From the NCBI GenBank assembly GCA_037576195.1, contig CM075103.1:1-64000 (forward strand): 64,000 nt of DNA, in the 5' to 3' direction. This document shows positions 1 to 64,000 of the stretch, in pieces; positions within the stretch are counted from its first letter, which is position 1; the number at the start of each line of letters is the position of its first letter. The DNA comes from Phytoseiulus persimilis (Eukaryota > Arthropoda > Arachnida > Mesostigmata > Phytoseiidae). Both the position numbers and the translations under genes were made by a program. Below the pieces are notes generated by a model, which was given only the letters and a program-made list of their open reading frames with translations, did not search any database and was not told where the DNA came from.

Positions 1-30
1 TAGCTTAAGACTAAATTCCACAAGCATACA

Positions 31-45
31 TTAGCTCAAAGCTAA
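31..45 (+). other. Perfect 15-bp dyad TTAGCT-CAA-AGCTAA (representative)
   Basis: A six-base inverted repeat flanks a three-base centre. It is present in every 37-mer with an AGCTAA first arm, that is, hundreds of times across the window. It could fold as a very short hairpin or be a two-fold symmetric protein site; the sequence alone does not say which. Confidence 0.8.
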
Positions 46-265
46 GACTAAATTTCAGGAGCAAGCCTTAGCCTGAGGCGAATTTTCAGAAGCATGCCTC
101 AGCCTAAGACTAAATTCCACAAGCATACATTAGCTCAAGGCTAAGACTAAATTTCAGAAGCATACATTAGCTCAACGCTAAGACTAAATTTCAGAAGCAT
201 GCCTTAGCCTGAGGCGAATTTTCAGAAGCATGCCTCAGCCTAAGACTAAATTTCAGAAGCATGCC

Positions 266-296
266 TTAGCCTGAGGCGAATTTTCAGAAGCAAACA
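266..296 (+). repeat. Reference copy of the 31-bp monomer, TTAGCC...GGCGAA type
   Basis: It reads left arm TTAGCC, spacer TGA, right arm GGCGAA and linker TTTTCAGAAGCAAACA (more usually ending GCATGCC). The right arm carries a CpG, and the linker starts with four T instead of ATTT or ATTC. A TAA-spacer form, TTAGCC-TAA-GGCGAA, also occurs (for example near 1,334). This subtype is much commoner left of 42.2 kb than in the right-hand domain. Confidence 0.93.
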
Positions 297-577
297 TCAG
301 CTCAACGCTAAGACCAAATTTCAGAAGCATACGTTAGCTCGAAGCTAAGACTAAATTTCGAAAACAGCCAACCTTAGCACAAGGCTGAGGCTAATTTTCA
401 GAAGCATGCCTTAGCTTAAGACTAAATTCCACAAGCATACATTAGCTTAAAGCTAAGACTAAATTTCAGGAGCAAGCCCTAGCCTGAGGCGAATTTTCAG
501 AAGCATGCCTCAGCCTAAGACTAAATTCCACAAGCATACATTAGCTCAACGCTAAGACCAAATTTCAGAAGCATACA

Positions 578-614
578 TTAGCTCAACGCTAAGACTAAAT
601 TTCAGAAGCATACA
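578..614 (+). repeat. Reference copy of the 37-bp monomer (two right arms)
   Basis: This is a clean example of the commonest long monomer. It reads left arm TTAGCT, spacer CAA, right arm CGCTAA, second right arm GACTAA and linker ATTTCAGAAGCATACA, and the next monomer starts immediately at 615. Across the window the first right arm varies (AGCTAA, CGCTAA, GGCTAA), while GACTAA and the linker are stable. The 37-mer is the 31-mer plus exactly one 6-nt arm. Confidence 0.95.
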
Positions 615-1219
615 TTAGCTCAACGCTAAGACTAAATTTCAGAAGCATGCCTTAGCCTGAGGCGAATTTTCAGAAGCATGCCTCAGCCTGAGACTAAATT
701 TCAGAAGCATGCCTTAGCCTGAGGCGAATTTTCAGAAGCATGCCTCAGCCTAAGACTAAATTCCACAAGCATACATTAGCTCAAGGCTAAGACTAAATTT
801 CAGAAGCATACATTAGCTCGAAGCTAAGACTGAATTTCAGAAGCATGCCTTAGCCTAAGACTAAATTCCACAAGCATACATTAGCCTAAGGCGAACTTTC
901 AGAAACATGCTTTAGCTTAAGACTAAATTCGACAAGCATACATTAGCTCAAGGCTAAGACTAAATTTTCAGAAGCATGCCTTAGCCTAAGACTAAATTTC
1001 AGAAGCATGCCTTAGCCTAAGACTAAATTTCAGAAGCAAGCCTTAGCCTAAGACTGAATTCCACAAGCATACATTAGCTCAAAGCTAAGACTAAATTTCA
1101 GAAGCATACCTTAGCTTAAGACTAAATTCCACAAGTATACATTAGCTCAAGGCTAAGGCTAAATTTCAAAAACAGCCAACCTCAGCTCAAGGCTAAGGCT
1201 GAATTCCAAAAACCGCCCA

Positions 1220-1238
1220 CCTTAGCTCAAGGCTAAGG
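1220..1238 (+). other. 7-bp-stem dyad in 40-mers, CCTTAGC and GCTAAGG
   Basis: In 40-mers the dyad grows to seven pairs around TCAAG, because CC before the left arm pairs with GG of the second right arm. It repeats every 40 bp within each run of 40-mers that has CCTTAGCT; copies with CCTCAGCT lose one pair. Confidence 0.75.
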
Positions 1239-1261
1239 CTAAATTTCAAAAACAGCCAACC
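1222..1261 (+). repeat. Reference copy of the 40-bp monomer
   Basis: It reads TTAGCT, CAA, GGCTAA, GGCTAA and a 19-nt linker ATTTCAAAAACAGCCAACC; the next copy starts at 1262. It differs from the 37-mer by a linker that is 3 nt longer and of different sequence (CAAAAACAGCCAACC replacing CAGAAGCATACA). The arm pair with flanking CC and GG makes a 7-bp dyad, CCTTAGC and GCTAAGG around TCAAG (for example 1220-1238). These monomers form short homogeneous runs of 3-4, unlike the mixed 31/37 stretches. Confidence 0.93.
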
Positions 1262-2914
1262 TTAGCTCAAGGCTAAGGCTAAATTTCAAAAACAGCACAC
1301 CTCAGCTCAAGGCTAAGGCTAATTTTCAGAAGCATGCCCTAGCCTAAGGCGAATTTTCAGAAGCATGCCCTAGCCCAAGACTAAATTCCACAAGCATACA
1401 TTAGCTCAAAGCTAAGACTAAATTTCAGAAGCATACATTAGCTCAACGCTGAGACTAAATTTCAAAAACAGCCAACCTCAGCTCAAGGCTAAGGCTAAAT
1501 TTCAAAAACAGCCAACCTTAGCTCAAGGCTAAGGCTAAATTTCAAAAACAGCCAGCCTTAGCTCAAGGCTAAGGCTAAATTTCAAAAACAGCCAACCTCA
1601 GCTCAAGGCTAAGGCTAATTTTCAGAAGCATGCCCTAGCCTAAGGCGAATTTTCAGAAGCATGCCTTAGCCCAAGACTGAATTCCACAAGCATACATTAG
1701 CTCAAAGCTAAGACTAAATTTCAGAAGCATACCTTAGCTTAAGACTAAATTCCACAAGTATACATTAGCTCAAGGCTAAGGCTAAATTTCAAAAACAGCC
1801 AACCTCAGCTCAAGGCTAAGGCTAAATTTCAAAAACCGCCCACCTTAGCTCAAGGCTAAGGCTAAATTTCAAAAACAGCCAACCTTAGCTCAAGGCTAAG
1901 GCTAAATTTCAAAAACAGCCAACCTCAGCTCAAGGCTAAGGCTAATTTTCAGAGGCATGCCCTAGCCTAAGGCGAATTTTCAGAAGCATGCCTTAGCCCA
2001 AGACTAAATTCCACAAGCATACATTAGCTCAAAGCTAAGACTAAATTTCAGAAGCATACATTAGCTCAACGCTAAGACTAAATTTCAAAAACAGCCAACC
2101 TCAGCTCAAGGCTAAGGCTAAATTTCAAAAACAGCCAACCTTAGCTCAAGGCTAAGGCTAAATTTCAAAAACAGCCAACCTTAGCTCAAGGCTAAGGCTA
2201 AATTTCAAAAACAGCCAACCTCAGCTCAAGGCTAAGGCTAATTTTCAGAAGCATGCCCTAGCCTAAGGCGAATTTTCAGAAGCATGCCTTAGCCCAAGAC
2301 TGAATTCCACAAGCATACATTAGCTCAAAGCTAAGACTAAATTTCAGAAGCATACCTTAGCTTAAGACTAAATTCCACAAGTATACATTAGCTCAAGGCT
2401 AAGGCTAAATTTCAAAAACAGCCAACCTCAGCTCAAGGCTAAGGCTAAATTTCAAAAACAGCCAACCTTAGCTCAAGGCTAAGGCTAAATTTCAAAAACA
2501 GCCAACCTTAGCTCAAGGCTAAGGCTAAATTTCAAAAACAGCCAACCTCAGCTCAAGGCTAAGGCGCATTTTCAGACGCATGCCTTAGCCCAAAACTAAA
2601 TTCCACAAGTATACATTAGGTCAAGGCTGAATTCCACAAGCATACATTAGCTTCAGGCTAAGACCAAATTTCAGAAGCATACATTAACTCAAAGCTAAGA
2701 CTAAATTTCAGAAGCATGCCTTAGCCCAAACCTAAATTCCACAAGCATACATTAGCTCAAGGCTAAATTCCACAAGCATACATTAGCTTCGGGCTAAGAC
2801 TAAATTTCAGAAGCATACATTAGCTCAAAGCTAAGACTAAATTTCAGAAGCATGCCTTAGCCCAAGACTAAATTCCACAAGCATACATTAGCTTAAGGCT
2901 AAGACTAAATTTCA

Positions 2915-8600: not shown

Positions 8601-9992
8601 GCATGCCTTAGCCCAAGACTAAATTCCACAAGCATACACTAGCTCAACGCTAAGACTAAATTTCAGAAGCAAGCCTTAGCCTGAGACTGAATTCCACAAG
8701 CATACATAAGCTCAAAGCTAAGGCGAATTTTCAGAAGCATGCCTTGGCCTAAGGCGAATTTTCAGAAGCATGCCTTAGCCTAAGACTAAATTCCACAAGC
8801 ATACATTAGCCTAAGGCGAACTTTCAGAAACATGCTTTAGCTTAAGACTAAATTCGACAAGCATACATTAGCTCAAGGCTAAGACTAAATTTTCAGAAGC
8901 ATGCCTTAGCTCAAGGCTAAGACTAAATTTTCAGAAGCATGCCTTAGCCTAAGACTAAATTTCAGAAGCATGCCTTAGCCTAAGACTAAATTTCAGAAGC
9001 AAGCCTTAGCCTAAGACTGAATTCCACAAGCAAGCCTTAGCCTAAGACTGAATTCCACAAGCATACATTAGCTCAAAGCTAAGACTAAATTTCAGAAGCA
9101 TACCTTAGCTTAAGACTAAATTCCAAAAGCATACATTAGCTCAAGGCTAAGGCTAAATTTCAAAAACAGCCAACCTCAGCTCAAGGCTAAGGCTAAATTT
9201 CAAAAACAGCCAACCTGAGCTCAAGGCTAAGGCTAAATTTCGAAAACAGCCAACCTCAGCTCAAGGCTAAGGCTAATTTTCAGAAGCATGCCCTAGCCTG
9301 AGGCGAATTTTCAGAAGCATGCCTTAGCCCAAGACTAAATTCCACAAGCATACATTAGCTCAACGCTGAGACTGAATTTCAGAAGCATACATTAGCTCAA
9401 CGCTAAGACTAAATTTCAGACGCATGCCTTAGCCCAAAACTAAATTCCACAAGTATACATTAGCTCAAGGCTAAATTCCACAAGCATACATTAGCTTCAG
9501 GCTAAGACTAAATTTCAGAAGCATACATTAGCTCAAAGCTAAGACTAAATTTCAGAAGCATGCCTTAGCTCAAGACTAAATTCCACAAGCATACATTAGC
9601 TTAAGGCTAAGACTAAATTTCAGAAGCATACATTAGCTCAAAGCTAAGACTGAATTTCAGAAGCATGCCTTAGCCCAAGACTAAATTCCACAAGCATACA
9701 TTAGCTCAACGCTAAGACTAAATTTCAGAAGCAAGCCTTAGCCCAAGACTGAATCCCACAAGCATACATTAGCTCAAAGCTGAGGCGAATTTTCAGAAGC
9801 ATGCCTTGGCCAAAGGCGAATTCTCAGAAGCATGCCGTAGCCTAAGACTAAATTCCACAAGCATACATTAGCTCAAGGCTAAGACCAAATTTCAGAAGCA
9901 TGCCTTAGCCCAAGACTAAATTCCACAAGCATACATTAGCTCAACGCTAAGACCAAATTTCAGAAGCATACATTAGCTCAACGCTAAGACTG
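8601..9992 (+). repeat. Mosaic stretch re-using pieces of 0.6-3.3 kb
   Basis: It contains a second version of the GAACTTTCAGAAAC segment (8,819, versus 893: offset 7,926), one run of three 40-mers at about 9,141-9,280, and then a TTCAGACGC exit near 9,416 followed by a shortened version of the 4.5-kb block start. The order of pieces resembles 0.6-1.3 kb joined to 2.57-3.3 kb, as if about 1 kb of the 623-bp HOR region had been removed. Confidence 0.78.
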
Positions 9993-18968: not shown

Positions 18969-18997
18969 AGCATACATTAGCTCAACGCTAAGACTAA

Positions 18998-21067
18998 ATT
19001 TCAGAAGCATGCCTTAGCCTGAGGCGAATTTTCAGAAGCAGCACTCAGCCTAAGACTAAATTTCAGAAGCATGCCTTAGCCTGAGGCGAATTTTCAGAAG
19101 CATGCCTCAGCCTAAGACTAAATTCTACAAGCATACATTAGCTTAAGGCTAAGACCAAATTTCAGAAGCACACATTAGCTCAAAGCTAAGACCAAATTTC
19201 AGAAGCATGCCCTAGCCCAAGACTAAATTCCACAAGCATACATTAGCTTAAGGCTAAGACTGAATTTCAGAAGCATGCCTTAGCCTGAGGCGAATTTTCA
19301 GAAGCATGCCTTAGCCCAAAACTAAATTCCATAAGCATACATTAGCTCAAGGCTAAATTTCACAAGCATACATTAGCTTCAGGCTAAGACTAAATTTCAG
19401 AAGCATACATTAGCTCAAAGCTAAGACTCGATTTCAGAAGCATGCCTTAGCCCAAGACTAAATTCCACAAGCATACATTAGCTTAAGGCTAAGACTAAAT
19501 TTCAGAAGCATGCCCTAGCCTAAGGCGAATTTTCAGAAGCATGCCTTAGCCCAAGACTGAATTCCACAAGCATACATTAGCTCAAAGCTAAGACTAAATT
19601 TCAGAAGCATACCTTAGCTTAAGACTAAATTCCACAAGTATACATTAGCTCAAGGCTAAGGCTAAATTTCAAAAACAGCCAACCTCAGCTCAAGGCTAAG
19701 GCTAAATTTCAAAAACCGCCCACCTTAGCTCAAGGCTAAGGCTAAATTTCAAAAACAGCCAACCTTAGCTCAAGGCTAAGGCTAAATTTCAAAAACAGCC
19801 AACCTCAGCTCAAGGCTAAGGCTAATTTTCAGAAGCATGCCCTAGCCTAAGGCGAATTTTCAGAAGCATGCCTTAGCCCAAGACTAAATTCCACAAGCAT
19901 ACATTAGCTCAAAGCTAAGACTAAATTTCAGAAGCATACCTTAGCTTAAGACTAAATTCCACAAGTATACATTAGCTCAAGGCTAAGGCTAAATTTCAAA
20001 AACAGCCAACCTCAGCTCAAGGCTAAGGCTAAATTTCAGAAGCATGCCTTAGCCTGAGGCGAATTTTCAGAAGCAGCACTCAGCCTAAGACTAAATTTCA
20101 GAAGCATGCCTTAGCCTGAGGCGAATTTTCAGAAGCATGCCTCAGCCTAAGACTAAATTCTACAAGCATACATTAGCTTAAGGCTAAGACCAAATTTCAG
20201 AAGCACACATTAGCTCAAAGCTAAGACCAAATTTCAGAAGCATGCCCTAGCCCAAGACTAAATTCCACAAGCATACATTAGCTTAAGGCTAAGACTGAAT
20301 TTCAGAAGCATGCCTTAGCCTGAGGCGAATTTTCAGAAGCATGCCTTAGCCCAAAACTAAATTCCATAAGCATACATTAGCTCAAGGCTAAATTTCACAA
20401 GCATACATTAGCTTCAGGCTAAGACTAAATTTCAGAAGCATACATTAGCTCAAAGCTAAGACTCGATTTCAGAAGCATGCCTTAGCCCAAGACTAAATTC
20501 CACAAGCATACATTAGCTTAAGGCTAAGACTAAATTTCAGAAGCATGCCCTAGCCTAAGGCGAATTTTCAGAAGCATGCCTTAGCCCAAGACTGAATTCC
20601 ACAAGCATACATTAGCTCAAAGCTAAGACTAAATTTCAGAAGCATACCTTAGCTTAAGACTAAATTCCACAAGTATACATTAGCTCAAGGCTAAGGCTAA
20701 ATTTCAAAAACAGCCAACCTCAGCTCAAGGCTAAGGCTAAATTTCAAAAACCGCCCACCTTAGCTCAAGGCTAAGGCTAAATTTCAAAAACAGCCAACCT
20801 TAGCTCAAGGCTAAGGCTAAATTTCAAAAACAGCCAACCTCAGCTCAAGGCTAAGGCTAATTTTCAGAAGCATGCCCTAGCCTAAGGCGAATTTTCAGAA
20901 GCATGCCTTAGCCCAAGACTAAATTCCACAAGCATACATTAGCTCAAAGCTAAGACTAAATTTCAGAAGCATACCTTAGCTTAAGACTAAATTCCACAAG
21001 TATACATTAGCTCAAGGCTAAGGCTAAATTTCAAAAACAGTCAACCTCAGCTCAAGGCTAAGGCTAA
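18998..21067 (+). repeat. 1,035-bp tandem pair with 40-mer runs
   Basis: The marker GCAGCACTCAG lies at 19,038 and 20,073, and TTCAGAAGCATGCCCTAG at 19,501 and 20,536; both pairs are 1,035 bp apart. Each unit holds a run of four 40-mers (about 19,660-19,830 and 20,690-20,860). A visible difference is AACAGTCAACC near 21,041 against AACAGCCAACC near 20,006. The pair recurs at about 32,457-34,526 in the long-range duplicate. Confidence 0.88.
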
Positions 21068-21189
21068 ATTTCAAAAACAGCCAACCTTAGCTCAAGGCTA
21101 AGGCTAAATTTCAAAAACAGCCAACCTTAGCTCAAGGCTAAGGCTAAATTTCAAAAACAGCCAACCTCAGCTCAAGGCTAAGGCTGATT

Positions 21190-24100
21190 TTCAGACGCAT
21201 GCCTTAGCCCAAAACTAAATTCCACAAGTATACATTAGGTCAAGGCTGAATTCCACAAGCATACATTAGCTTCAGGCTAAGACCAAATTTCAGAAGCATA
21301 CATTAGCTCAAAGCTAAGACTAAATTTCAGAAGCATGCCTTAGCCCAAACCTAAATTCCACAAGCATACATTAGCTCAAGGCTAAATTCCACAAGCATAC
21401 ATTAGCTTCGGGCTAAGACTAAATTTCAGAAGCATACATTAGCTCAAAGCTAAGACTAAATTTCAGAAGCATGCCTTAGCCCAAGACTAAATTCCACAAG
21501 CATACATTAGCTTAAGGCTAAGACTAAATTTCAGAAGCATACATTAGCTCAAAGCTAAGACTGAATTTCAGAAGCATGCCTTAGCCCAAGACTAAATTCC
21601 ACAAGCATACATTAGCTCAACGCTAAGACTAAATTTCAGAAGCAAGCCTTAGCCCAAGACTGAATTCCACAAGCATACATTAGCTCAAAGCTGAGGCGAA
21701 TTTTCAGAAGCATGCCTTGGCCGAAGGCGAATTTTCAGAAGCATGCCTTAGCCTAAGACTAAATTCCACAAGCATACATTAGCTCAACGCTAAGACCAAA
21801 TTTCAGAAGCATGCCTTGGCCCAAGACTAAATTCCACAAGCATACATTAGCTCAACGCTAAGACTGAATTTTCAGAAGCATGCCTTAGCCTGAGGCGAAT
21901 TTTCAGAAGCGTGCCTCAGCCTGAGACTAAATTCCACAAGCAAACATTAGCTCAACGCTAAGACTTAATTTCAGGAGCATGCCTTAGCCTGAGGCTAAAT
22001 TCCACAAGCATACATTAGCTCAACGCTAAGACTAAATTTCAGAAGCATGCCTTAGCCCAAGACTAAATTCCACAAGCATACATCAGCTCAAAGCTAAGAC
22101 TAAATTTCGAAAACAGCCAACCTTAGCTCAAGGCTGAGGCTAATTTTCAGAAGCATGCCTTAGCTTAAGACTAAATTCCACAAGCATACATTAGCTCAAC
22201 GCTAAGGCTAAATTTCAGAAGCATACATTAGCTCAAAGCTAAGACTGAATTTGAGAAGCATGCCTTAGCCCAAGACTAAATTCCACAAGCATACATTAGC
22301 TCAACGCTAAGACTAAATTTCAGAAGCAAGCCTTAGCCCAAGACTGAATTCCACAAGCATACATTAGCTCAAAGCTGAGGCGAATTTTCAGAAGCATGCC
22401 TTGGCCTAAGACTAAATTCCACAAGCATACATTAGCTCAACGCTAAGACCAAATTTCAGAAGCATGCCTTAGCCCAAGACTAAATTCCACAAGCATACAT
22501 TAGCTCAACGCTAAGACCAAATTTCAGAAGCATACATTAGCTCAACGCTAAGACTGAATTTTCAGAAGCATGCCTTAGCCTGAGGCGAATTTTCAGAAGC
22601 GTGCCTCAGCCTGAGACTAAATTCCACAAGCAAACATCAGCTCAAAGCTAAGACTAAATTTCGAAAACAGCCAACCTTAGCTCAAGGCTGAGGCTAATTT
22701 TCAGAAGCATGCCTTGGCCGAAGGCGAATTTTCAGAAGCATGCCTTGGCCGAAGGCGAATTTTCAGAAGCATGCCTTAGCCTAAGACTAAATTCCACAAG
22801 CATACATTAGCTCAACGCTAAGACCAAATTTCAGAAGCATGCCTTAGCCCAAGACTAAATTCCACAAGCATACATTAGCTCAACGCTAAGACCAAATTTC
22901 AGAAGCATACATTAGCTCAACGCTAAGACTGAATTTTCAGAAGCATGCCTTAGCCTGAGGCGAATTTTCAGAAGCGTGCCTCAGCCTGAGACTAAATTCC
23001 ACAAGCAAACATCAGCTCAAAGCTAAGACTAAATTTCGAAAACAGCCAACCTTAGCTCAAGGCTGAGGCTAATTTTCAGAAGCATGCCTTGGCCGAAGGC
23101 GAATTTTCAGAAGCATGCCTTGGCCGAAGGCGAATTTTCAGAAGCATGCCTTAGCCTAAGACTAAATTCCACAAGCATACATTAGCTCAACGCTAAGACC
23201 AAATTTCAGAAGCATGCCTTAGCCCAAGACTAAATTCCACAAGCATACATTAGCTCAACGCTAAGACCAAATTTCAGAAGCATACATTAGCTCAAAGCTA
23301 AGACTAAATGCCAGAAGCATGCCTTAGCCCAATACTAAATTCCACAAGCAAACATCAGCTCAACGCTAAGACCAAATTTCAGAAGCATACATTAGCTCGA
23401 AGCTAAGACTAAATTTCGAAAACAGCCGACCTTAGCTCAAGGCTGAGGCTAATTTTCAGGAGCATGCCTTAGCTTAAGACTAAATTCCACAAGCATACAT
23501 TAGCTCAACGCTAAGACCAAATTTCAGACGCATGCCTTAGCCCAAGACTAAATTCCACGAGCATACATTAGCTCAACGCTAAGACCAAATTTCAAAAGCA
23601 TACATTAGCTCAACGCTAAGACTGAATTTTCAGAAGCATGCCTTAGCCTAAGGCGAATTCTCAGAAGCGTGCCTCAGCCTGAGACTAAATTCCACAAGCA
23701 AACATTAGCTCAACGCTAAGACTAAATTTCAGGAGCATGCCTTAGCCTGAGGCTAAATTCCACAAGCATACATTAGCTCAACGCTAAGACTAAATTTCAG
23801 AAGCATGCCTCAGCCCAAGACTAAATTCCACAAGCATACATCAGCTCAAAGCTAAGACTAAATTTCGAAAACAGCCAACCTTAGCTCAAGGCTGAGGCTA
23901 ATTTGCAGAAGCATGCCTTGGCTTAAGACTAAATTCCACAAGCATACATTAGCTCAACGCTAAGGCTGAATTCCAGAAGCATACATTAGCTCAAAGCTAA
24001 GACTAAATGCCAGAAGCATGCCTTAGCCCAATACTAAATTCCACAAGCAAACATCAGCTCAACGCTAAGACCAAATTTCAGAAGCATACATTAGCTCGAA

Positions 24101-26320: not shown

Positions 26321-28302
26321 AGAAGCAAGCCTTAGCCTAAGACTGAATTCCACAAGCATACATTAGCTCAAAGCTAGGGCGAATTTTCGGAAGCATGCCT
26401 TGGCCTAAGGCGAATTTTCAGAAGCATGCCTTAGCCTAAGACTGAATTCCACAAGCATACATTAGCTCAAGGCTACGACTAAATTTTCAGAAGCATGCCT
26501 TAGCCTAAGACTAAATTTCAGAAGCAAGCCTTAGCCTAAGACTGAATTCCACAAGCATACATTAGCTCAAAGCTAAGACTAAATTTCAGAAGCATACCTT
26601 AGCTTAAGACTAAATTCCACAAGCATACATTAGCTCAAGGCTAAGGCTAAATTTCAGAAACAGCCAACCTTAGCTCAAGGCTAAGGCTAATTTTCAGAAG
26701 CATGCCTTGGCCCAAAACTAAATTCCACAAGCATACATCAGCTCAACGCTAAGACTAAATTTCGGATGCATACATTAGCTCAACGCTAAGACTAAATTTC
26801 AGATGCATACATTAGCTCAACGCTAAGACTAAATTTCAGAAGCATGCCTTAGCCCAAAACTAAATTCCACAAGCATACATCAGGTCAAGGCTGAATTCCA
26901 CAAGCATACATTAGCTTCAGGCTAAGACTTAATTTCAGAAGCATACATTAGCTCAAAGCTAAGACTAAATTTCAGAAGCATGCCTTAGTCCAAGACTAAA
27001 TTCCACAAGCATACATTAGCTTAAGGCTAAGACTAAATTTCAGAAGCATACATTAGCTCAAAGCTAAGACTGAATTTCAGAAGCATGCCTTAGCCCAAGA
27101 CTAAATTCCACAAGCATACATCAGCTCAACGCTAAGACTAAATTTCAGAAGCAAGCCTTAGCCCAAGACCGAATTCCACAAGCATACATTAGCTCAAAGC
27201 TAAGGCGAATTTTCAGAAGCATGCCTTGGCCAAAGGCGAGTTTCCAGAAGCATGCCTTAGCCTAAGACTAAATCCCACAAGCATACATTAGCCTAAGGCG
27301 AATTTTCAGAAGCATGCCTTTGCTTAAGACTAAATTCCACAAGCATACATTAGCTCAAGGCTAAGACTAAATTTTCAGAAGCATGCCTTAGCCTTAGACT
27401 AAATTTCAGAAGCAAGCCTTAGCCTAAGACTGAATTCCACAAGCATACATTAGCTTAAAGCTAAGACTAAATTTCAGAAGCATACCTTAGCTTAAGACTA
27501 AATTCCACAAGCATACATTAGCTCAAGGCTAAGGCTAAATTTCAAAAACAGCCAACCTTAGCTCAAGGCTTAGGCTAATTTTCAGAAGCATGCCCTAGCC
27601 TAAGGCGAATTTTCAGAAGCATGCCTTAGCCCAAGACTAAATTCCACAAGCACACATAAGCTCAACGCTAAGACTAAATTTCAGAAGCATACATTAGCTC
27701 AACGCTAAGACTAAATTTCAGAAGCATACATTAGCTCAACGCTAAGACTAAATTTCAGAAGCATGCCTTAGCCCAAAACTAAATTCCACAAGCATACATT
27801 AGGTCAAAGCTGAATTCCACAAGCATACATCAGCTTCAGGCTAAGACTAAATTTCAGAAGCATACATTAGCCCAAAGCTAAGACTAAATTTTGGAAGCAT
27901 GCCTTGGCCCAAGACTAAATTCCACAAGCATACATTAGCACAAGGCTAAGACTAAATTCTCAGGAGCATGCCTCAGCCTAAGACTAAATTTCAGAAGCAT
28001 ACATTACCTCAAAGCTGAGACTAAATTTCAGAAGCAAGCCACAGCCGAAGGCTAATTTTCAGAAGCATGCCTTAGCCTAAGACTAAATTCCACAAGCTTA
28101 CATTAGCTCAACGCTAAGACTGAATTTAAGAAGCATACATTAGCTCAAAGCTAAGACTAAATTTCAGAAGCATGCCTTAGCCCAAGACTTAATTCCACAA
28201 GCACACATTAGCTCAACGCTAAGACTAAATTTCAGAAGCATGCATTAGCTCAAAGCTGAGACTAAATTTCAGAAGCATGCCTCAGCCTAAGACTAAATTC
28301 CA
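26321..28302 (+). repeat. 31/37-bp stretch with single 40-bp-like monomers
   Basis: Mixed monomers include isolated AAACAGCCAACC units (about 26,660 and 27,545), TTCAGATGCATAC variants near 26,760-26,815, and the perfect dyad TTAGTC-CAA-GACTAA at 26985-26999. From about 27,760 to 28,240 it matches 30,480-30,960 at offset 2,720 (GAATTTAAG at 28,122 and 30,842). Confidence 0.82.
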
Positions 28303-40300: not shown

Positions 40301-42206
40301 GCATACATTAGCTCAACGCTAAGACTAAATTTCAGAAGCATGCCTTAGCCCAAAACTAAATTCCACAAGCATACATCAGGTCAAGGCTGAATTCCACAAG
40401 CATACATTAGCTTCAGGCTAAGACTTAATTTCAGAAGCATACATTAGCTCAAAGCTAAGACTAAATTTCAGAAGCATGCCTTAGCCCAAGACTAAATTCC
40501 ACAAGCATACATTAGCTTAAGGCTAAGACTAAATTTCAGAAGCATACATTAGCTCAAAGCTAAGACTGAATTTCAGAAGCATGCCTTAGCCCAAGACTAA
40601 ATTCCACAAGCATACATCAGCTCAACGCTAAGACTAAATTTCAGAAGCAAGCCTTAGCCCAAGACCGAATTCCACAAGCATACATTAGCTCAAAGCTAAG
40701 GCGAATTTTCAGAAGCATGCCTTGGCCAAAGGCGAGTTTCCAGAAGCATGCCTTAGCCTAAGACTAAATCCCACAAGCATACATTAGCCTAAGGCGAATT
40801 TTCAGAAGCATGCCTTTGCTTAAGACTAAATTCCACAAGCATACATTAGCTCAAGGCTAAGACTAAATTTTCAGAAGCATGCCTTAGCCTTAGACTAAAT
40901 TTCAGAAGCAAGCCTTAGCCTAAGACTGAATTCCACAAGCATACATTAGCTTAAAGCTAAGACTAAATTTCAGAAGCATACCTTAGCTTAAGACTAAATT
41001 CCACAAGCATACATTAGCTCAAGGCTAAGGCTAAATTTCAAAAACAGCCAACCTTAGCTCAAGGCTTAGGCTAATTTTCAGAAGCATGCCCTAGCCTAAG
41101 GCGAATTTTCAGAAGCATGCCTTAGCCCAAGACTAAATTCCACAAGCACACATAAGCTCAACGCTAAGACTAAATTTCAGAAGCATACATTAGCTCAACG
41201 CTAAGACTAAATTTCAGAAGCATACATTAGCTCAACGCTAAGACTAAATTTCAGAAGCATGCCTTAGCCCAAAACTAAATTCCACAAGCATACATTAGGT
41301 CAAAGCTGAATTCCACAAGCATACATTAGCTTCAGGCTAAGACTAAATTTCAGAAGCATACATTAGCCCAAAGCTAAGACTAAATTTTGGAAGCATGCCT
41401 TGGCCCAAGACTAAATTCCACAAGCATACATTAGCACAAGGCTAAGACTAAATTCTCAGGAGCATGCCTCAGCCTAAGACTAAATTTCAGAAGCATACAT
41501 TACCTCAAAGCTGAGACTAAATTTCAGAAGCAAGCCACAGCCGAAGGCTAATTTTCAGAAGCATGCCTTAGCCTAAGACTAAATTCCACAAGCTTACATT
41601 AGCTCAACGCTAAGACTGAATTTAAGAAGCATACATTAGCTCAAAGCTAAGACTAAATTTCAGAAGCATGCCTTAGCCCAAGACTTAATTCCACAAGCAC
41701 ACATTAGCTCAACGCTAAGACTAAATTTCAGAAGCATGCATTAGCTCAAAGCTGAGACTAAATTTCAGAAGCATGCCTCAGCCTAAGACTAAATTCCACA
41801 AGCATACATTAGCTCAAGGCTAAGACTAAACTTCAGAAGCATGAATTAGCTTAACGTTAAGACTAAATTTCAGGAGCATGCCTTAGCCCAAGACTAAATT
41901 CCACAAGCATACATTAGCCCAACGCTAAGACTAAATTTCAGAAGCATGCCTTAGCCTAAGACTAAATTTCAGAAGCATGCCTCAGCCTAAGACTAAATTC
42001 CACAAGCATACATTAGCTTAAGGCTAAGACTAAATTTCAGAAGCATGAGTTAGCTTAACGATTAGACTGAATTTCAGAAGCATGCCTTAGCCCAAGACTA
42101 AATTCCACAAGCATGAATTAGCTTAACGCTAAGACTAAATTTCAGAAGCATACATTAGCTCAAAGCTGAGACTGAATTTCAGAAGCATGCCTCAGCCCAA
42201 GACTGA
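31384..42206 (+). repeat. 10.8-kb block, copy 2 of the 13.46-kb-spaced duplication
   Basis: It is collinear with 17,925-28,710, including the nested 377-bp, 1,035-bp and 4.5-kb-block structures. Relative to copy 1 it has an extra GGCGAA-type 31-mer near 35,866 and a different patch at 36,487-36,770. Elsewhere I saw scattered substitutions, such as GGCTTTAGAC at 37,428 against GGCTTAAGAC at about 23,932. The match stops at about 42,207, where copy 1 continues GAATTCCACAAGC but this copy reads GAATCCACAAAGC and enters the indel-rich region. Confidence 0.92.
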
Positions 42207-43815
42207 ATCCACAAAGCATACATTAGCTCAAAGCTAAGACTAAATTTCAGAAGCATAGCCTTAGCTCAAGGCTAAGACTAAATTTCAGAAGCATGCCTTA
42301 GCCTAAGACCAAGACTAAATTCCAGCATACATTAGCTCAACGCTAAGACTAAATTTCAGAAGCATACATTAGCTCAACGCTAAGACTAAATTTCAGAAGC
42401 ATGCCTTAGCCCAAGACTAAATTCCACAAGCATACATTAGCTCTCAAGGCTAAGACTAATTTCAGAAGCATACATTAGCTCAAAGCTAAGACTAAATTTC
42501 AAGCATGCCTTAGCCTAAGACTAAATTCCACAAGCCTTAGCTCAGGACCAAATTCCACAGCATACATTAGCTCAACGCTGAGACCAATTTCAGAAGCATA
42601 CATCAGCTCAAAGCTGAGACTAAATTTCAGGAGCAAGCCTTAGCCTGGGGCGAATTTTCAGAAGCATGCCTCAGCCTAAGACTAATTCCACAGCTACATA
42701 GCTCAAAGTAAGACTAAATTTCAGAAGCATACATGAGCTCAAAGCTAAGACTAAATTTCAGACGCATGCCTCAGCCTAAGACTGAATTCCTACAAGCATA
42801 AATTAGCTTAAGGCTAAGACTAAATTTCAGAAGCATACATTAGCTCAAAGCTAAGACTGAATTTCAGAAGCATGCCTTAGCCCAAGACTAAATTCCACAA
42901 GCATACATTAGCTCAACGCTAAGACTAAATTTCAGAAGCATGCCTTAGCCCAAGACGAATTCCACAAGCATTACATTAGCTCAACGCTAAGACTAAATTT
43001 CAGGAGCATGCCTTAGCCCAAGACTAAATTCCACAAGCATACATTAGCTTCAACGCTAAGACCTAAATTTCAGAAGCATGCCTTAGCCTAAGACTAATTT
43101 CAGAAGCATACATTAGCCTAAGGCGAATTTTCAGAAGCATACATCAGCTCAAGGCTAAGACTAAACTTCGAAAACAGCCAACCTGTAGCTCAAGACTGAG
43201 GCTAATTTTCAGAAGCATGCCTTAGCCTAAGACTAAATTCCACAGCATACATTAGCTCAACGCTAAGACTAAATTTCAGAAGCATTACATTAGCTCAAAG
43301 CTAAGACTGAATTTCAGAAGCATGCAATTCAGCCTCTAAGACTAAATTTTCCACAAGCATACAGTAGTAACGCTAAGGACTAAATTTCAAAAGATGCCTT
43401 AGCCCAAGACTGAATTCCACAAGCATACATAGCTAAAAGATCAACGACTAAATTCAGAAGCATCGAGCTCAAGCTAAGACTAAATTTCAGAAGCATTGCC
43501 TCAGCCTAAGACTAAATTCCACAAGCCTACATAGCTCAACGCTAAGGACCAAATTTCAGACGCATACATTAGGCTCAAAGCTAAGACTAAATTCGAAAAC
43601 AGCCAAACTTAGCTCAAGGATGAGGCTAATTTCAGAAGCATGCCTTAGCTTAGGACTAAATTCCAAAAGCATACTTAGCTCAAACGCTAAGGGACAAATT
43701 TCAGAAGCATGCCTTAGCCTGATGCGAATTTTCAGAAGCATGCCTCAGCCAAGACGAAATTCCACAAGCATACATTAGCTCAAAGCTAAAGACTAAATTT
43801 CAGAAGCAACATGAG
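42190..43815 (+). repeat. Indel-rich satellite patch
   Basis: Monomers are recognisable but many are off-length because of one- or two-base gains and losses, for example TTCCAGCATAC (42,331), ACTAATTCCACAGCTACATAG (about 42,680) and CATGCAATTCAGCCTCTAAG (43,321). Outside the middle domain monomer lengths are nearly always exact. The content corresponds to cleaner copies such as about 45,400-45,620 and 52,900-53,130. The only longer open frame in the window lies here because stops are lost to the indels. The indels may reflect unpolished consensus or real decay. Confidence 0.85.
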
Positions 43816-45360
43816 CTCAAAGCTAAGACTAAATTTCAGAAGCATGCCTTAGCCCAAGACTAAATTCCACAAGCACACATTAGCTTAAGCCTAAGACTAA
43901 ATTTCAGAAGCATACATTAGCTCAAAGCTAAGACTGAATTTCAGAAGCATGCCTTAGCCCAAGACTAAATTCCACAAGCATACATTAGCTCAACGCTGAG
44001 ACTAAATTTCAGAAGCATGCCTTAGCCCAAGACTGAATTCCACAAGCATACATTAGCTCAACGCTAAGACTAATTTCAGGAGCATGCCTTAGCCCAAGAC
44101 TAAATTCCACAAGCATACATTAGCTCAACGCTAAGACTAAATTTCAGAAGCATGCCTTAGCCTAAGACTAAATTTCAGAAGCATACATGAGCCTAAGGCG
44201 AATTTTCAGAAGCATACATCAGCTCAAGGCTAAGACTAAACTTCGAAAACAGCCAATGTTAGCTCAAGACTGAGGCTTAATTTTCAGAAGCATGCCTTAG
44301 CCTAAGACTAAATGCCACAAGCATACATTAGCTCAACGCTAAGACTAAATTTCAGGAGCATGCCTTAGCTCAACGCTAAGACTAAATTTCAGAAGCATAC
44401 ATTAGCTCAAAGCTAAGATCAAATTTCAGAAGCATGCCTTAGCCCAAGACTAAATTCCACAAGCATACATTAGCTCAACGCTAAGACTAAATTTCAGAAG
44501 CATACGTTAGCTCAAAGCTAAGACTAAATTTCAGAAGCATGCTTTAGCTCAAGACCAAATTCCACAAGCATACATTAGCTTAAGGCTAAGACTAAATTTC
44601 AGAAGCATACATTAGCTCAAAGCTAAGACTAAATTTCAGAAGCATGCCTTAGCTTAAGGACTGAATTCCACAAGCATACATCAGCTCAAAGCTAAGACTA
44701 AATTTCAGAAGCATGCCTCAGCCTGAGACTAAATTCCACAAGCATAAATTCGCTCAAGCTAAGACTAAATTTCAAGGAGCAAGCCTTAGCCTGAGGCGAA
44801 TTTCAGAAGCAGGCCTCAGCCTAAGACTAAATTCCACAAGCTTACATTAGCTCAACGCTAAGACTAAATTCCACAAGCATACATTAGCTCAAGGCTAATT
44901 CCACAAGCATACATTAGCTTAAGTCTAAGACTAAATTTCAGAAGCATACATTAGCTCAAAGCTAAGACTGAATTTCAGAAGCATGCCTAGCCCAAGACTA
45001 AATTCCACAAGCATACATTAGCTTAAGGCTAAGACTCAATTTCAGAAGCATACATTAGCTCAAAGCTGACACTACATTTCAGAAGCATGCCTCAGCCTTA
45101 GACTTAATTCCACAAGCATACATTAGCTTTAAGGCTAAGACGAAATTTCAGAAGCATACATTAGCTCAAAGCTAAGACTGAATTTCAGAAGCATGCCTTA
45201 GCCAAGACTAAATTCCACAAGCATACAGTAGCTCAGCGCTAAGACTAAATTTCAAAAGCATGCCTTAGCCTGAGGCTAATTTTCAGAAGCATGCCTTAGC
45301 TTAAGACTAAATTCCACAAGCATACATTAGCTCAACGCTAAGACTAAATTTCAGAAGCAT
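43816..45360 (+). repeat. 68-bp-dimer stretch with a sister copy at 50.4-51.5 kb
   Basis: It is mostly 37+31 dimers. From about 44,100 to 45,270 it matches 50,355-51,525 at offset about 6,256 (AATGTTAGCTC at 44,255 and 50,511). Compared with that copy it has around ten one-base indels, for example GAGGCTTAATTTT versus GAGGCTAATTTT, GCTCAAGCT versus GCTCAAAGCT, and GCATGCCTAGCC versus GCATGCCTTAGCC, but few substitutions. Confidence 0.82.
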
Positions 45361-45369
45361 ACATTAGCT

Positions 45370-46630
45370 CAAAGCTGAGACTAAATTTCAGGAGCGTGCC
45401 TTAGCTCAGGACCGAATTCCACAAGCATACATTAGCTCAACGCTGAGACCGAATTTCAGAAGCATACATCAGCTCAAAGCTGAGACTAAATTTCAGGAGC
45501 AAGCCTTAGCCTGAGGCGAATTTTCAGAAGCATGCCTCAGCCTAAGACTAAATTCCACAAGCATACATTAGCTCAAAGCTAAGACTAAATTTCAGAAGCA
45601 TACATGAGCTCAAAGCTAAGACTAAATTTCAGAAGCATGCCTTAGCCCAAGACTAAATTCCACAAGCACACATTAGCTTAAGGCTAAGACTAAATTTCAG
45701 AAGCATACATTAGCTCAAAGCTAAGACTGAATTTCAGAAGCATGCCTTAGCCCGAGACTAAATTCCACAAGCATACATTAGCTCAACGCTAAGACTAAAT
45801 TTCAGAAGCATGCCTTAGCCCAAGACTGAATTCCACAAGCATACATTAGCTCAACGCTAAGACTAAATTTCAGGAGCATGCCTTAGCCCAAGACCAAATT
45901 CCACAAGCATACATTAGCTCAACGCTAAGACTAAATTTCAGAAGCATGCCTTAGCCTAAGACTAAATTTCAGAAGCATACATTAGCCTAAGGCGAATTTT
46001 CAGAAGCATACATCAGCTCAAGGCTAAGACTAAACTTCGAAAACAGCCAATGTTATTCAAGACTGAGGCTAATTTTCAGAAGCATGCCTTAGCCTGAGAC
46101 TAAATTCCACAAGCATACATTAGCTCAACGCTAAGACTAAATTTCAGAAGCATACATTAGCTCAAAGCTAAGACTAAATTTCAGAAGCATGCCTTAGCCC
46201 AAGACTGAATTCCACAAGCATACATTGGCTCAAAGCTAAGACTAAATTTCAGAAGCATGCCTCAGCCTAAGACTAAATTCCACAAGCATAAATTAGCTCA
46301 AAGCTAAGACTAAATTTCAGGAGCAAGCCTTAGCCTGAGGCGAATTTTCAGAAGCATGCCTCAGCCTAAGACTAAATTCCACAAGCATACATTAGCTCAA
46401 CGCTAAGACTAAATTTCAGAAGCATACATAAGCTCAAAGCTAAGACTAAATTTCAGAAGCATGCCTTAGCCCAAGATTAAGTTTCAGAAGCATGCCTTAG
46501 CTTAAGACTAAATTCCACAAGCATACATTAGCCTAAGGCGAATTTTCAGAAGCATACATCAGCTCAAGGCTAAGACTAAATTTCGAAAACAGCCAACCTT
46601 AGCTCAAGGCTGAGGCTATTTTTCAGAAGC
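45370..46630 (+). repeat. 1.26-kb unit, clean copy of a 1.6-kb-spaced pair
   Basis: It matches 46,970-48,230 at offset 1,601-1,602 (AATGTTATT at 46,049 and 47,650; TGAGGCTATT at 46,611 and 48,213). Its first 0.7 kb also matches 52,900-53,620 at offset about 7,533. The monomer CCAATGTTATTCAAGACTGAGG lacks a normal left arm and is a good marker for this lineage. Confidence 0.85.
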
Positions 46631-46774
46631 ATGCCTTAGCCTAAGACTAAATTCCACAAGCACACATTAGCTCAACGCTAAGGCTAAATTTCAGAAGCAT
46701 ACCTTAGCTCAAAGCTAAAACTAAATTTCAGAAGCATGCTTTAGCCCAAGACCAAATTCCACAAGCATACATTA

Positions 46775-47190
46775 GCTAGCGATGTTTCAGAAGCATGCCC
46801 TCAGCCTAAGACTAATTCCACAGCATACATTAGCTCAAAGCTAAGACAATTTCAGGGCAAGCCTTAGCCTGAGGGCTAATTTTCGAGAAGCTGCCTTAGC
46901 GTAAGACAAATTCCACAAGCAGACAGTAGCTCAACGCGAAGACTAATTTCGAAGCATACATTAGCTCAACTGAGACTAAATTTCAGAGCGTGACCTTAGC
47001 TCGGACACAAATTCCACAAGCATACATTAGCTCAACGCTGGGACCAAATTTCAGGAAGCCCTACATCAGCTCACTAAGCTGAGACTAAATTTCAGGAGCA
47101 AGCCTTAGCCTGAGGCGAATTTTCAGAAGCATAGCCTCAAGCCTAAGACTAAATTCCACAAAGCATACATTAGCTCAAAGTAAGACTAAA
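46775..47190 (+). repeat. Second indel-rich patch
   Basis: It begins at a disrupted monomer TTAGCTAGCGATGTTTCAG (about 46,772) and continues with forms such as AAGACAATTTCAGGGCAAGCC and TCAACTGAGACTAAATTTCAGAGCGTGACC. The order of variants corresponds to about 48,570-48,980, with about two dozen small indels. Regular monomers resume near 47,190. Confidence 0.83.
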
Positions 47191-48230
47191 TTCAGAAGCA
47201 TACATGAGCTCAAAGCTAAGACTAAATTTCAGAAGCATGCCTTAGCCCAAGACTAAATTCCACAAGCACACATTAGCTTAAGGCTAAGACTAAATTTCAG
47301 AAGCATACATTAGCTCAAAGCTAAGACTGAATTTCAGAAGCATGCCTTAGCCCGAAGACTAAATTCCACAAGCATACATTAGCTCAACGCTAAGACTAAA
47401 TTTCAGAAGCATGCCTTAGCCCAAGACTGAATTCCACAAGCATACATTAGCTCAACGCTAAGACTAAATTTCAGGAGCATGCCTTAGCCCAAGACCAAAT
47501 TCCACAAGCATACATTAGCTCAACGCTAAGACTAAATTTCAGAAGCATGCCTTAGCCTAAGACTAAATTTCAGAAGCATACATTAGCCTAAGGCGAATTT
47601 TCAGAAGCATACATCAGCTCAAGGCTAAGACTAAACTTCGAAAACAGCCAATGTTATTTCAAGACTGAGGCTAATTTTCAGAAGCATGCCTTAGCCTGAG
47701 ACTAAATTCCACAAGCATACATTAGCTCAACGCTAAGACTAAATTTCAGAAGCATACATTAGCTCAAAGCTAAGACTAAATTTCAGAAGCATGCCTTAGC
47801 CCAAGACTGAATTCCACAAGCATACATTGGCTCAAAGCTAAGACTAAATTTCAGAAGCATGCCTCAGCCTAAGACTAAATTCCACAAGCATAAATTAGCT
47901 CAAAGCTAAGACTAAATTTCAGGAGCAAGCCTTAGCCTGAGGCGAATTTTCAGAAGCATGCCTCAGCCTAAGACTAAATTCCACAAGCATACATTAGCTC
48001 AACGCTAAGACTAAATTTCAGAAGCATACATAAGCTCAAAGCTAAGACTAAATTTCAGAAGCATGCCTTAGCCCAAGATTAAGTTTCAGAAGCATGCCTT
48101 AGCTTAAGACTAAATTCCACAAGCATACATTAGCCTAAGGCGAATTTTCAGAAGCATACATCAGCTCAAGGCTAAGACTAAATTTCGAAAACAGCCAACC
48201 TTAGCTCAAGGCTGAGGCTATTTTTCAGAA
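46970..48230 (+). repeat. 1.26-kb unit, second copy of the 1.6-kb-spaced pair
   Basis: It is collinear with 45,370-46,630. Its first 200 bp lie inside the indel-rich patch, and the rest is nearly identical to the first copy apart from one-base differences such as GTTATTTCAAG against GTTATTCAAG and CCCGAAGAC against CCCGAGAC. Confidence 0.83.
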
Positions 48231-60390: not shown

Positions 60391-62535
60391 AGACTAAATT
60401 TCAGAAGCATGCCTTAGCCCAAGACTAAATTCCACGAGCACACATTAGCTCAACGCTAAGACTGAATTTCAGGAGCATGCCTTAGCCCAAGACTAAATTC
60501 CACAAGCATACATTAGCTCAAGGCTAAGACTAAATTTTCAGAAGCATGCCTTAGCCTAAGACTGAATCCCACGAGCATACATTAGCTCAACGCTAGGACT
60601 AAATTTCAGAAGCATACATAAGCTCAAAGCTAAGACTAAATTTCAGAAGCATGCCTTAGCCCAAGACTGAATCCCACGAGCGTACATTAGCTCAACGCTA
60701 AGACTAAATTTCAGAGCATACATTAGCTCAACGCTAAGACTAAATTTCAGAAGCATGCCTTAGCCCAAAACTAAATTCCACAAGCATACATTAGCTCAAG
60801 GCTAAATTCCACAAGCATACATTAGCTTCAGGCTAAGACTGAATTTCAGAAGCATACATTAGCTCAAAGCTAAGACTAAACAGAAGCATGCCTTAGCCCA
60901 AGACTAAATTCCACAAGCATACATTAGCTCAAGGCTAAGACTAAATTTTCAGAAGCATGCCTTAGCCTAAGACTGAATCCCACGAGCATACATTAGCTCA
61001 ACGCTAAGACCAAATTTCAGAAGCATACATTAGCTCAAAGCTAAGACTAAATTTCAGAAGCATGCCTTAGCCCAAGACTGAATCCCACGAGCATACATTA
61101 GCTCAACGCTAAGACTGAATTTCAGAAGCATACATTAGCTCAAAGCTAAGACTAAATTTCAGGAGCATGCCTTAGCCTGAGGCGAATTTTCAGAAGCATA
61201 CATTAGCTCAAAGCTAAGACTGAATTTCAGAAGCATGCCTTAGCCCAAGACTAAATTCCACAAGCATACATTAGCTCAAGGCTAAGACTAAATTTCAGAA
61301 GCATACATTAGCTCAAGGCTAAGACTAAATTTCAGAAGCATGCCTTAGCGTAAGACTAAATTTCAGAAGCATGCCTTAGCTTAAGACTAAATTCCACGAG
61401 CATGCCTTAGCCTGGGGCGAATTTTCAGAAGCATGCCTTAGCCCAAAACTAAATTCCACAAGCATACATTAGCTCAAGGCTAAATTCCATGAGCATACAT
61501 TAGCTTAAGGCTAAGACTGAATTTCAGAAGCATACATTAGCTCAAAGCTAAGACTAAATTCCAGAAGCATGCCTTAGCCCAAGACTAAATTCCACAAGCA
61601 TACATTAGCTCAACGCTAAGACTAAATTTCAGAAGCATGCCTTAGCCCAAGACTAAATTCCACGAGCACACATTAGCTCAACGCTAAGACTGAATTTCAG
61701 GAGCATGCCTTAGCCCAAGACTAAATTCCACAAGCATACATTAGCTCAAGGCTAAGACTAAATTTTCAGAAGCATGCCTTAGCCTAAGACTGAATCCCAC
61801 GAGCATACATTAGCTCAACGCTAGGACTAAATTTCAGAAGCATACATAAGCTCAAAGCTAAGACTAAATTTCAGAAGCATGCCTTAGCCCAAGACTGAAT
61901 CCCACGAGCGTACATTAGCTCAACGCTGAGACTAAATTTCAGAGCATACATTAGCTCAACGCTAAGACTAAATTTCAGAAGCATGCCTTAGCCCAAAACT
62001 AAATTCCACAAGCATACATTAGCTCAAGGCTAAATTCCACAAGCATACATTAGCTTCAGGCTAAGACTGAATTTCAGAAGCATACATTAGCTCAAAGCTA
62101 AGACTAAACAGAAGCATGCCTTAGCCAAAGACTAAATTCCACAAGCATACATTAGCTCAAGGCTAAGACTAAATTTTCAGAAGCATGCCTTAGCCTAAGA
62201 CTGAATCCCACGAGCATACATTAGCTCAACGCTAAGACCAAATTTCAGAAGCATACATTAGCTCAAAGCTAAGACTAAATTTCAGAAGCATGCCTTAGCC
62301 CAAGACTGAATCCCACGAGCATACATTAGCTCAACGCTAAGACTGAATTTCAGAAGCATACATTAGCTCAAAGCTAAGACTAAATTTCAGGAGCATGCCT
62401 TAGCCTGAGGCGAATTTTCAGAAGCATACATTAGCTCAAAGCTAAGACTGAATTTCAGAAGCATGCCTTAGCCCAAGACTAAATTCCACAAGCATACATT
62501 AGCTCAAGGCTAAGACTAAATTTCAGAAGCATACA
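60080..62535 (+). repeat. 1,228-bp tandem pair
   Basis: CCTGGGGCG at 60,183 and 61,411 and TTCAGAGCATAC at 60,710 and 61,938 are each 1,228 bp apart, with the junction near 61,308. I noticed two differences: 60,700 A versus 61,928 G, and 60,899 C versus 62,127 A. The left part overlaps the end of the 2.5-kb block, so the pair arose after or together with that duplication. Confidence 0.9.
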
Positions 62536-62847
62536 TTAGCTCGAAGCTAAGACTAAACTTCAGAAGCATGCCTTAGCCCAAGACTAAATTCCACAAGCAT
62601 ACATTAGCTTAAGGCTAAATTCCACAAGCATACATTAGCTTCAGGCTAAGACTAAATTTCAGAAGCATACATTAGCTCAAAGCTAAGACTGGATTTCAGA
62701 AGCATGCCTTAGCCCCAGACTAAATTCCACAAGCATACATTAGCTTAAGGCTAAGACTAAATTTTCAGAAGCATGCCTTAGCCTAAGACTAAATTTCAGA
62801 AGCAAGCCTTAGCCTAAGACGTAATTCCACAAGCATACATTAGCTCA
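62536..62847 (+). repeat. Short 31/37-bp connector
   Basis: These are ordinary mixed monomers with a few private variants (ACTGGATTTCAG, CCCCAGACTAAATTCC, GACGTAATTCC) and no long-range copy that I could find. Confidence 0.75.
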
Positions 62848-64000
62848 AAGCTAAATTCCACAAGCATACATTAGCTCAAGGCTAAGACTAAATTTCGGAA
62901 GCATGCCTTGGCCCAAGACTGAAATCCACAAGCATACATTAGCTTAAGGCTAACACTGAATTTCAGAAGCATACCTTAGCCTAAGACTGAATTCCACAAG
63001 CATACATTAGCTCAACGCTAAGACCAGATTTCAGAAGCATGCCTTCGCCCAAGGCGAATTTTCAGAAGCATGCCCTAGCCTGAGGCGAATTTTCAGAAGC
63101 ATGCCCTAGCCTAAGGCGAATTTTCAGAAGCATGCCTTGGCCCAAGACTGAATTCCACGAGCATACATTAGCTCAACGCTAAGACTAAATTTCAGAAGCA
63201 TGCCTTAGCCCAAGACTAAATTCCACAAGCATACATTAGCTCAACGCTAAGACTAAATTTCAGAAGCATGCCTTAGCCTAGGACTAAATTTCAGAAGCAT
63301 ACATTAGCTCAAAGCTAAGACTAAATTTCAGAAGCATGCCTTAGCCCAAGACTGAATTCCACAAGCATGCATTAGCTCGAAGCTAAGACTAAATTTCAGA
63401 AGCAAGCCTTAGCCTAAGGTTAATTTTCAGAAGCATGCCTTAGCCTAAGACTAAATTCCACAAGCATACATTAGCTCAACGCTAAATTCCACAAGCATAC
63501 ATTAGCTCAAGGCTAAGACTAAATTTCGGAAGCATGCCTTGGCCCAAGACTGAAATCCACAAGCATACATTAGCTTAAGGCTAACACTGAATTTCAGAAG
63601 CATACCTTAGCCTAAGACTGAATTCCACAAGCATACATTAGCTCAACGCTAAGACCAGATTTCAGAAGCATGCCTTCGCCCAAGGCGAATTTTCAGAAGC
63701 ATGCCCTAGCCTGAGGCGAATTTTCAGAAGCATGCCCTAGCCTAAGGCGAATTTTCAGAAGCATGCCTTGGCCCAAGACTGAATTCCACGAGCATACATT
63801 AGCTCAACGCTAAGACTAAATTTCAGAAGCATGCCTTAGCCCAAGACTAAATTCCACAAGCATACATTAGCTCAACGCTAAGACTAAATTTCAGAAGCAT
63901 GCCTTAGCCTAGGACTAAATTTCAGAAGCATACATTAGCTCAAAGCTAAGACTAAATTTCAGAAGCATGCCTTAGCCCAAGACTGAATTCCACAAGCATA
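62848..64000 (+). repeat. 631-bp tandem pair, second copy cut by the window end
   Basis: CTAAATTCCACAAGC at 62,851 and 63,482, TTTCGGAAG at 62,893 and 63,524, and TTCGCC-CAA-GGCGAA at 63,044 and 63,675 are all 631 bp apart. I saw no difference over the roughly 520 bp that can be compared. The second unit is incomplete at 64,000. Confidence 0.9.
63044..63058 (+). other. Perfect dyad TTCGCC-CAA-GGCGAA
   Basis: Here the left arm has changed from the usual TTAGCC to TTCGCC, which restores full complementarity to a GGCGAA right arm. The same dyad recurs at 63,675-63,689 in the second 631-bp unit. In most other GGCGAA monomers the left arm is TTAGCC, leaving one mismatch. Confidence 0.75.

Follow-up and report, generated by a model that had tools for sequence, protein, structure and literature searches.

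Discrete monomer lengths mark lineages in a tandem satellite array of Phytoseiulus persimilis

A tandem array whose monomers come in a few discrete lengths raises the question of whether those lengths obey a rule of construction or record a history of copying. The window analysed here (the whole stretch of 64,000 bases of Phytoseiulus persimilis DNA) is filled by such an array, and a sequence-only reading had proposed that its monomers are assembled from whole modules: a six-base left arm, a three-base spacer, one or two six-base right arms and a linker of 16 or 19 bases, with the hexamer arm itself serving as a unit of duplication or of function, for example as a protein half-site. We consider it probable that the array is ordinary satellite DNA with higher-order repeats, in which a few old monomer lineages have been copied, presumably by unequal exchange and block duplication.

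The array and its genomic setting

The window makes up the first 64000 bases of scaffold C3 (38.88 Mb) in an assembly of 181 Mb and 127 contigs, the large scaffolds of which, C1 to C4, measure 54.7, 52.0, 38.9 and 28.1 Mb. It is a single tandem array throughout (the TRF row spans 6-63981), and Rfam gives no match in the window at the gathering threshold.

1..64000, + strand: uninterrupted tandem satellite array in a single orientation, 1860 monomers parsed (TRF and HMM parse)

The family was located across the whole genome with two exact 30-mers, a search that would miss diverged copies or satellite absent from the assembly; it returned 80 and 89 matches, all on C1 and C3, with C2, C4 and every small contig free of them. 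On C1 there is a block at 31.77-31.81 Mb; C3 has matches within 0-304 kb and at 38.70-38.88 Mb, one of the patterns also matching at 23.69 Mb and a lone match lying at 32.19 Mb, and the C3 blocks are present in both orientations. A 22-base core occurs 1730 times genome-wide, 320 of them in the window.

Monomer lengths

Monomers were delimited by an HMM parse with trained profiles for the linker and TTAGC, the remainder of each monomer being allowed any length from 0 to 60 bases, which left arm lengths unconstrained. Among the 1860 monomers parsed, 839 have 31 bp, 793 have 37, 118 have 40, 54 have 38 and 56 some other length; the claim of discrete lengths of 31, 37 and 40 bp is therefore borne out by 1750 monomers. 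The arm region that follows TTAGC has 9 bases in 852 monomers (short-arm), 15 in 919 (long-arm), 16 in 51 and another length in 38, so that 1771 of the 1860 have either 9 or 15, and none has the 20-22 bases that three right arms would occupy. The 40-mer combines a 15-base arm region with a linker three bases longer (19 bases). In a model-free check, the commonest spacings between exact TTAGC were 37 (585) and 31 (485).

954..1051, + strand: example run of 31-bp monomers with a linker ending in GCC and a 9-base arm region (TRF row and sequence)
1144..2565, + strand: many 40-bp monomers (two right arms and a 19-base linker) clustered together with 31- and 37-bp ones (TRF, sequence and parse)
9138..9282, + strand: 3.6 clean consecutive copies of the 40-bp monomer (TRF)
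42000..48000, + strand: indel patch with 38 of the 56 off-length monomers (parse and alignment to its copy)

Off-length monomers had been expected to gather in indel patches, and 38 of the 56 do lie within 42-48 kb. Outside that patch 1623 of 1686 monomers have 31, 37 or 40 bp; none has 32-35 or 39 bp, five have 36 bp and 45 (of the 54 in the window) have 38 bp, so that only the 38-mers count against the expected absence of many intermediate sizes. The 38-mers, a class missing from the module plan, mostly carry one added base next to the A/T run at the arm-linker junction.

Seven other stretches of C1 and C3 contain 1666 monomers, of which 727 have 31 bp, 684 have 37, 57 have 38, 78 have 40 and 120 another length (1489 with 31, 37 or 40 bp); the most irregular stretch, L009, has 32 monomers of other length among 161. 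The 31- and 37-bp classes thus recur within the same genome, whereas 40-mers are absent from two stretches (L014 and L023) and are present in five of the seven in other forms. One exact 40-mer form has 26 matches genome-wide, 26 of 26 inside the window (1144-34643), and that form may therefore be a local, recent offshoot.

Linker type and monomer length

Three lineages can be told apart by their linkers: a 31-bp lineage with a linker ending in GCATGCC, a 37-bp lineage with one ending in GCATACA, and the 40-bp form with its 19-base linker. We counted the first two on 22-base blocks that read GCC or ACA at the three diagnostic bases and belong to an arm region of either 9 or 15 bases. In the window, GCC is followed by the 9-base region in 698 monomers and by the 15-base region in 4, and ACA by the 15-base region in 749 and by the 9-base region in 79, so that length agrees with linker (GCC short, ACA long) in 1447 of 1530 monomers. 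The corresponding counts in the seven other stretches are 611 versus 3 and 638 versus 49, an agreement of 1249 of 1301. Monomer length is a lineage marker and, because the linker predicts the arms after it, the natural unit consists of linker, left arm and right arm or arms.

Placement of the six-base step

When each arm is allowed up to one mismatch, the arms given by the sequence-only reading account for 809 of 834 short-arm monomers in the window and for 815 of 908 long-arm ones (monomers whose linker block had neither 22 nor 25 bases, 18 among 852 and 11 among 919, were set aside); in the seven other stretches they fit 682 of 703 and 641 of 758. To this extent the module plan describes the array, but it leaves out the 38-bp class, and its arm count is ambiguous: in 367 of the 852 short-arm monomers there is another CTRA hexamer, which overlaps the left arm (TTAGCCTAAGACTAA), so that the choice between one arm and two has no unique answer. 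Nor is the supposed extra arm restricted to GACTAA or GGCTAA, since in the 919 long-arm monomers the first right arm is GGCTAA in 257, and AGCTAA (264) and CGCTAA (247) are about as common.

The step from 31 to 37 bp had been described as exactly one extra arm. We placed it by cutting six bases from the four common long-arm cores and comparing the products with real short-arm monomers. The mean mismatch in the window is 1.33 when TCAANG is cut immediately after TTAGC and 2.09 when the first right arm is cut; monomer by monomer (n = 852), the TCAANG placement is better in 406, worse in 70 and tied in 376. The seven other stretches give means of 1.21 and 2.02 (better in 352, worse in 48, tied in 344). 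Exact matches to the four common cores number 129 and 46 of 852, respectively, and when all cores with at least five copies are admitted 477 of 852 short-arm monomers are explained exactly by the TCAANG placement and 121 of 852 by the arm placement, the former figure resting partly on rare cores (seven copies of the CCAAGACTA form and nine of CTGAGGCGA). The step is better described by TCAANG placed immediately behind TTAGC than by an extra arm, and it does not fall uniquely at a right-arm boundary.

Among the 79 short monomers with the ACA linker, 50 are of type TCAAGGCTA/G (TCAAGGCTA in 40, TCAAGGCTG in 10). This form does look as though one of two neighbouring arms had been lost, from which it follows that arm-by-arm slippage probably happened a few times. 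Private arm-loss forms are TCAAAGCTG (3), TCAAAGCTA (1) and TCAACGCTA (1), and one GCC-linker monomer (n = 1), at 42281 in the indel patch, reads CTAAGACCAAGACTA, as after the gain of a hexamer.

Duplications and growth of the array

Internal duplications were identified from exact-word diagonals and by pairwise alignment. Exact repeats of at least 150 bp cover 82% of the window, the longest being 2710 bp at an offset of 13459.

19256..21965, + strand: exact 2710-bp duplication, first copy (exact-word diagonals; offset 13459)
32715..35424, + strand: exact 2710-bp duplication, second copy (exact-word diagonals)
28292..29406, + strand: 1115 bp repeated exactly from 29395 onward, offset 1103 (exact-word diagonals and alignment)

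The order of lengths is non-random, with 705 distinct words of 10 monomers against a mean of 1726 after shuffling, and distinct sequences number only 178 among the 839 31-mers and 173 among the 793 37-mers. Ten duplicate pairs were aligned, and the five called cleanest here were picked after the result was seen (offsets 3.25k, 1.10k, 1.23k, 2.16k and 10.54k; mismatch 0 to 1.33%). Over 8418 aligned bases these contain four gaps, of 28, 31, 37 and 168 bases, two of which (31 and 37) are whole monomers, and no six-base gap. The other 84 gaps, among them all eight six-base gaps and nearly all of the single-base gaps, fall in the five more diverged pairs (offsets 13.46k, 12.07k, 12.70k, 1.60k and 11.19k; mismatch 1.81 to 3.44%), where we think that gaps stem partly from paralogous monomers aligned out of register. 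As written by the aligner, seven of the eight six-base gaps are TCAAAG, TCAACG or TCAAGG and one is CTAAGA. Together with the private arm-loss forms, these eight gaps indicate that six-base events have recurred.

The dyad and possible function

Both length classes retain the dyad TTAG-N7-CTAA: if up to one mismatch is allowed, it is found in 90% of short-arm monomers (the 31-mers) and 98% of long-arm monomers (the 37- and 40-mers), and exactly in 48% and 70%. The second CTAA lies at N1 in 79% of short-arm and at N13 in 95% of long-arm monomers, again allowing one mismatch. Conservation does not single out the arms as a whole. In the window, entropy per position in the 31-mers is 0.33 bits for the linker, 0.34 for the left arm and 0.54 for the last right arm, and in the 37-mers it is 0.27, 0.16 and 0.33, with 0.42 for the first right arm; in the other stretches the values are 0.29, 0.30 and 0.48 for 31-mers and 0.26, 0.13, 0.24 and 0.46 for 37-mers. 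The left arm is therefore more conserved than the linker only in 37-mers, and the right arms are more variable than the linker or about equal to it.

Compensating changes between the arms are at most weak: for one dyad position pair per class, joint changes in the four sets number 29, 7, 24 and 9 against 24.7, 4.8, 16.9 and 5.3 expected (69 versus 51.7 in all), counts taken over rows that are related to one another. Folding z-scores against shuffled sequences are 1.30 and -0.45 for the 31-mer consensuses, -2.15 and -1.32 for the 37-mer consensuses and -2.87 for the 40-mer consensus.

Lengths of 31 and 37 bp correspond to about 3 and 3.5 helical turns. Rotational phasing of nucleosomes by the order of 31- and 37-bp monomers was considered and rejected: coherence of AATT/ATTT per 147 bp is below that of the shuffled order at 10.2, 10.5, 10.7 and 11.0 bp (0.322 versus 0.438 at 10.5 bp) and slightly exceeds it at 10.0 bp (0.585 versus 0.552). 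Most likely the array has no function beyond that of bulk heterochromatin.

Explanations of the length classes

The array displays discrete length classes, their linkage to linker type, a non-random order of lengths and exact block duplications. Under the higher-order satellite reading, each lineage (31, 37 and 40 bp) would have fixed its own length once or a few times, through what may have been only a few original indel events (of 6, 3 and 1 bp); unequal exchange, the probable copying process, together with block duplication in units ranging from roughly a single monomer to many kb, would then have spread the mixture into higher-order repeats. The apparent regularity of the lengths would come from a small number of ancestral indels copied hundreds of times, and the locus would offer a clean case in which a few chance indels and subsequent amplification mimic a rule, with discrete lengths and a neat module plan. 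If instead the hexamer arm were the unit of duplication, slippage between adjacent CTAA hexamers would gain and lose arms and so create the classes. We regard this as improbable as the main process, in spite of the arm-loss forms in the ACA lineage, the presence of CTAA at the six-base step in both classes (at N7 as well as at N1 or N13, one mismatch allowed), the apparent hexamer gain at 42281 and the six-base gaps of the diverged pairs: three-arm monomers are absent, length follows the linker to the point that the GCC lineage has only 4 long monomers, the TCAANG placement beats the arm placement both in the window and elsewhere, seven of the eight gaps are written in the TCAANG form, and the cleanest duplicates have none. 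What survives of the hexamer as a unit of duplication is slippage on probably a few occasions.

The arms have also been read as putative protein half-sites, so that the array would bind a sequence-specific satellite protein and length steps would be tolerated as long as one dyad stays intact. Retention of the dyad in both classes keeps this reading a candidate; the low entropy of the left arm in 37-mers, in the window and elsewhere, and the folding of the 40-mer and one 37-mer consensus, better than most shuffles, also speak for it. It is nevertheless unlikely, given that the left arm about equals the linker in 31-mers, that the variability of the last right arm exceeds that of the linker in three sets out of four and is close to it in the remaining one, that the first right arm is more variable in both of its sets, that covariation is at most weak, that 31-mer consensuses fold no better than shuffles and that the window has no CENP-B box; conservation and covariation give no clear support. 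A more specific version, which we consider slightly less likely still, would make TTAG-N7-CTAA a true binding site: six bases inserted after the left arm would keep the spacing of one dyad while the second CTAA moved from N1 to N13, the 31/37 step would be tolerated or favoured, and the array would alternate two versions of the site. Were it correct, a satellite-binding protein would have a candidate site that is both short and well defined. Finally, the array might be chromosome-end, telomere-like DNA with TTAGNC-like hexamers on the G-rich strand toward the scaffold end, a reading that would suit a window starting at base 1 of C3, a strand that is C-rich throughout, the same family near the opposite end of C3 and an assembly with no exact (TTAGG)5 anywhere. 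We rejected it as very improbable, since a telomeric array would be confined to chromosome ends and keep one orientation, whereas this family has an interior block on C1, which alone largely refutes the reading, and matches at 23.69 and 32.19 Mb on C3, flips orientation several times, gives way to about 2.6 kb of other sequence at the right end of C3 and is missing from the opening 10 kb of both C1 and C2.

Comparison with known satellites

The higher-order satellite reading places the array beside satellites of which alpha satellite is the best known. The likeness lies in head-to-tail monomers forming one long array of related units (1860 over 64 kb), in a few divergent lineages copied in repeated order as multi-monomer blocks, and in near-identical large duplications; the difference is that the monomers here are short (31-40 bp) and unequal, so that the higher-order pattern is visible as an order of lengths. 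A centromeric satellite would be expected on every chromosome; the exact 30-mers, which register neither diverged nor unassembled copies, place this family on C1 and C3 only. The CENP-B box has no match on either strand within the window; many centromeric satellites are without one.

TmSat1 and TmSat2 of Tribolium madens resemble the array in having short inverted repeats (<10 bp) within subunits and arrays with reversed subarrays that form large dyads (PMC13081366). Their subunits go back to a sequence of about 110 bp, to which 38% of that genome is attributed (PMC13081366), whereas the units here have 31-40 bp and were seen on two of four large scaffolds; the likeness is one of description. 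A literature search on length variants of satellite monomers returned no paper.

Observations on the assembly

The several flips of orientation towards the two ends of C3 (within 0-304 kb and within 38.70-38.88 Mb) produce reversed subarrays, which may be genuine large dyads or may result from scaffold joining; runs of N are present in stretches L011, L012 and L014. The non-satellite sequence in the last ~2.6 kb of C3 (stretch L010) resembles a non-LTR retroelement, judged by eye. Between ~46798 and ~47354 (~46.8-47.4 kb) most differences from the copy at ~48.6-49.1 kb are single-base indels, and this stretch has the look of unpolished assembly, not of true divergence. The whole assembly has no COX1 match. 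Three small contigs whose length is shown have 25000, 25000 and 125000 bases, all multiples of 25,000, which suggests scaffolding fragments.
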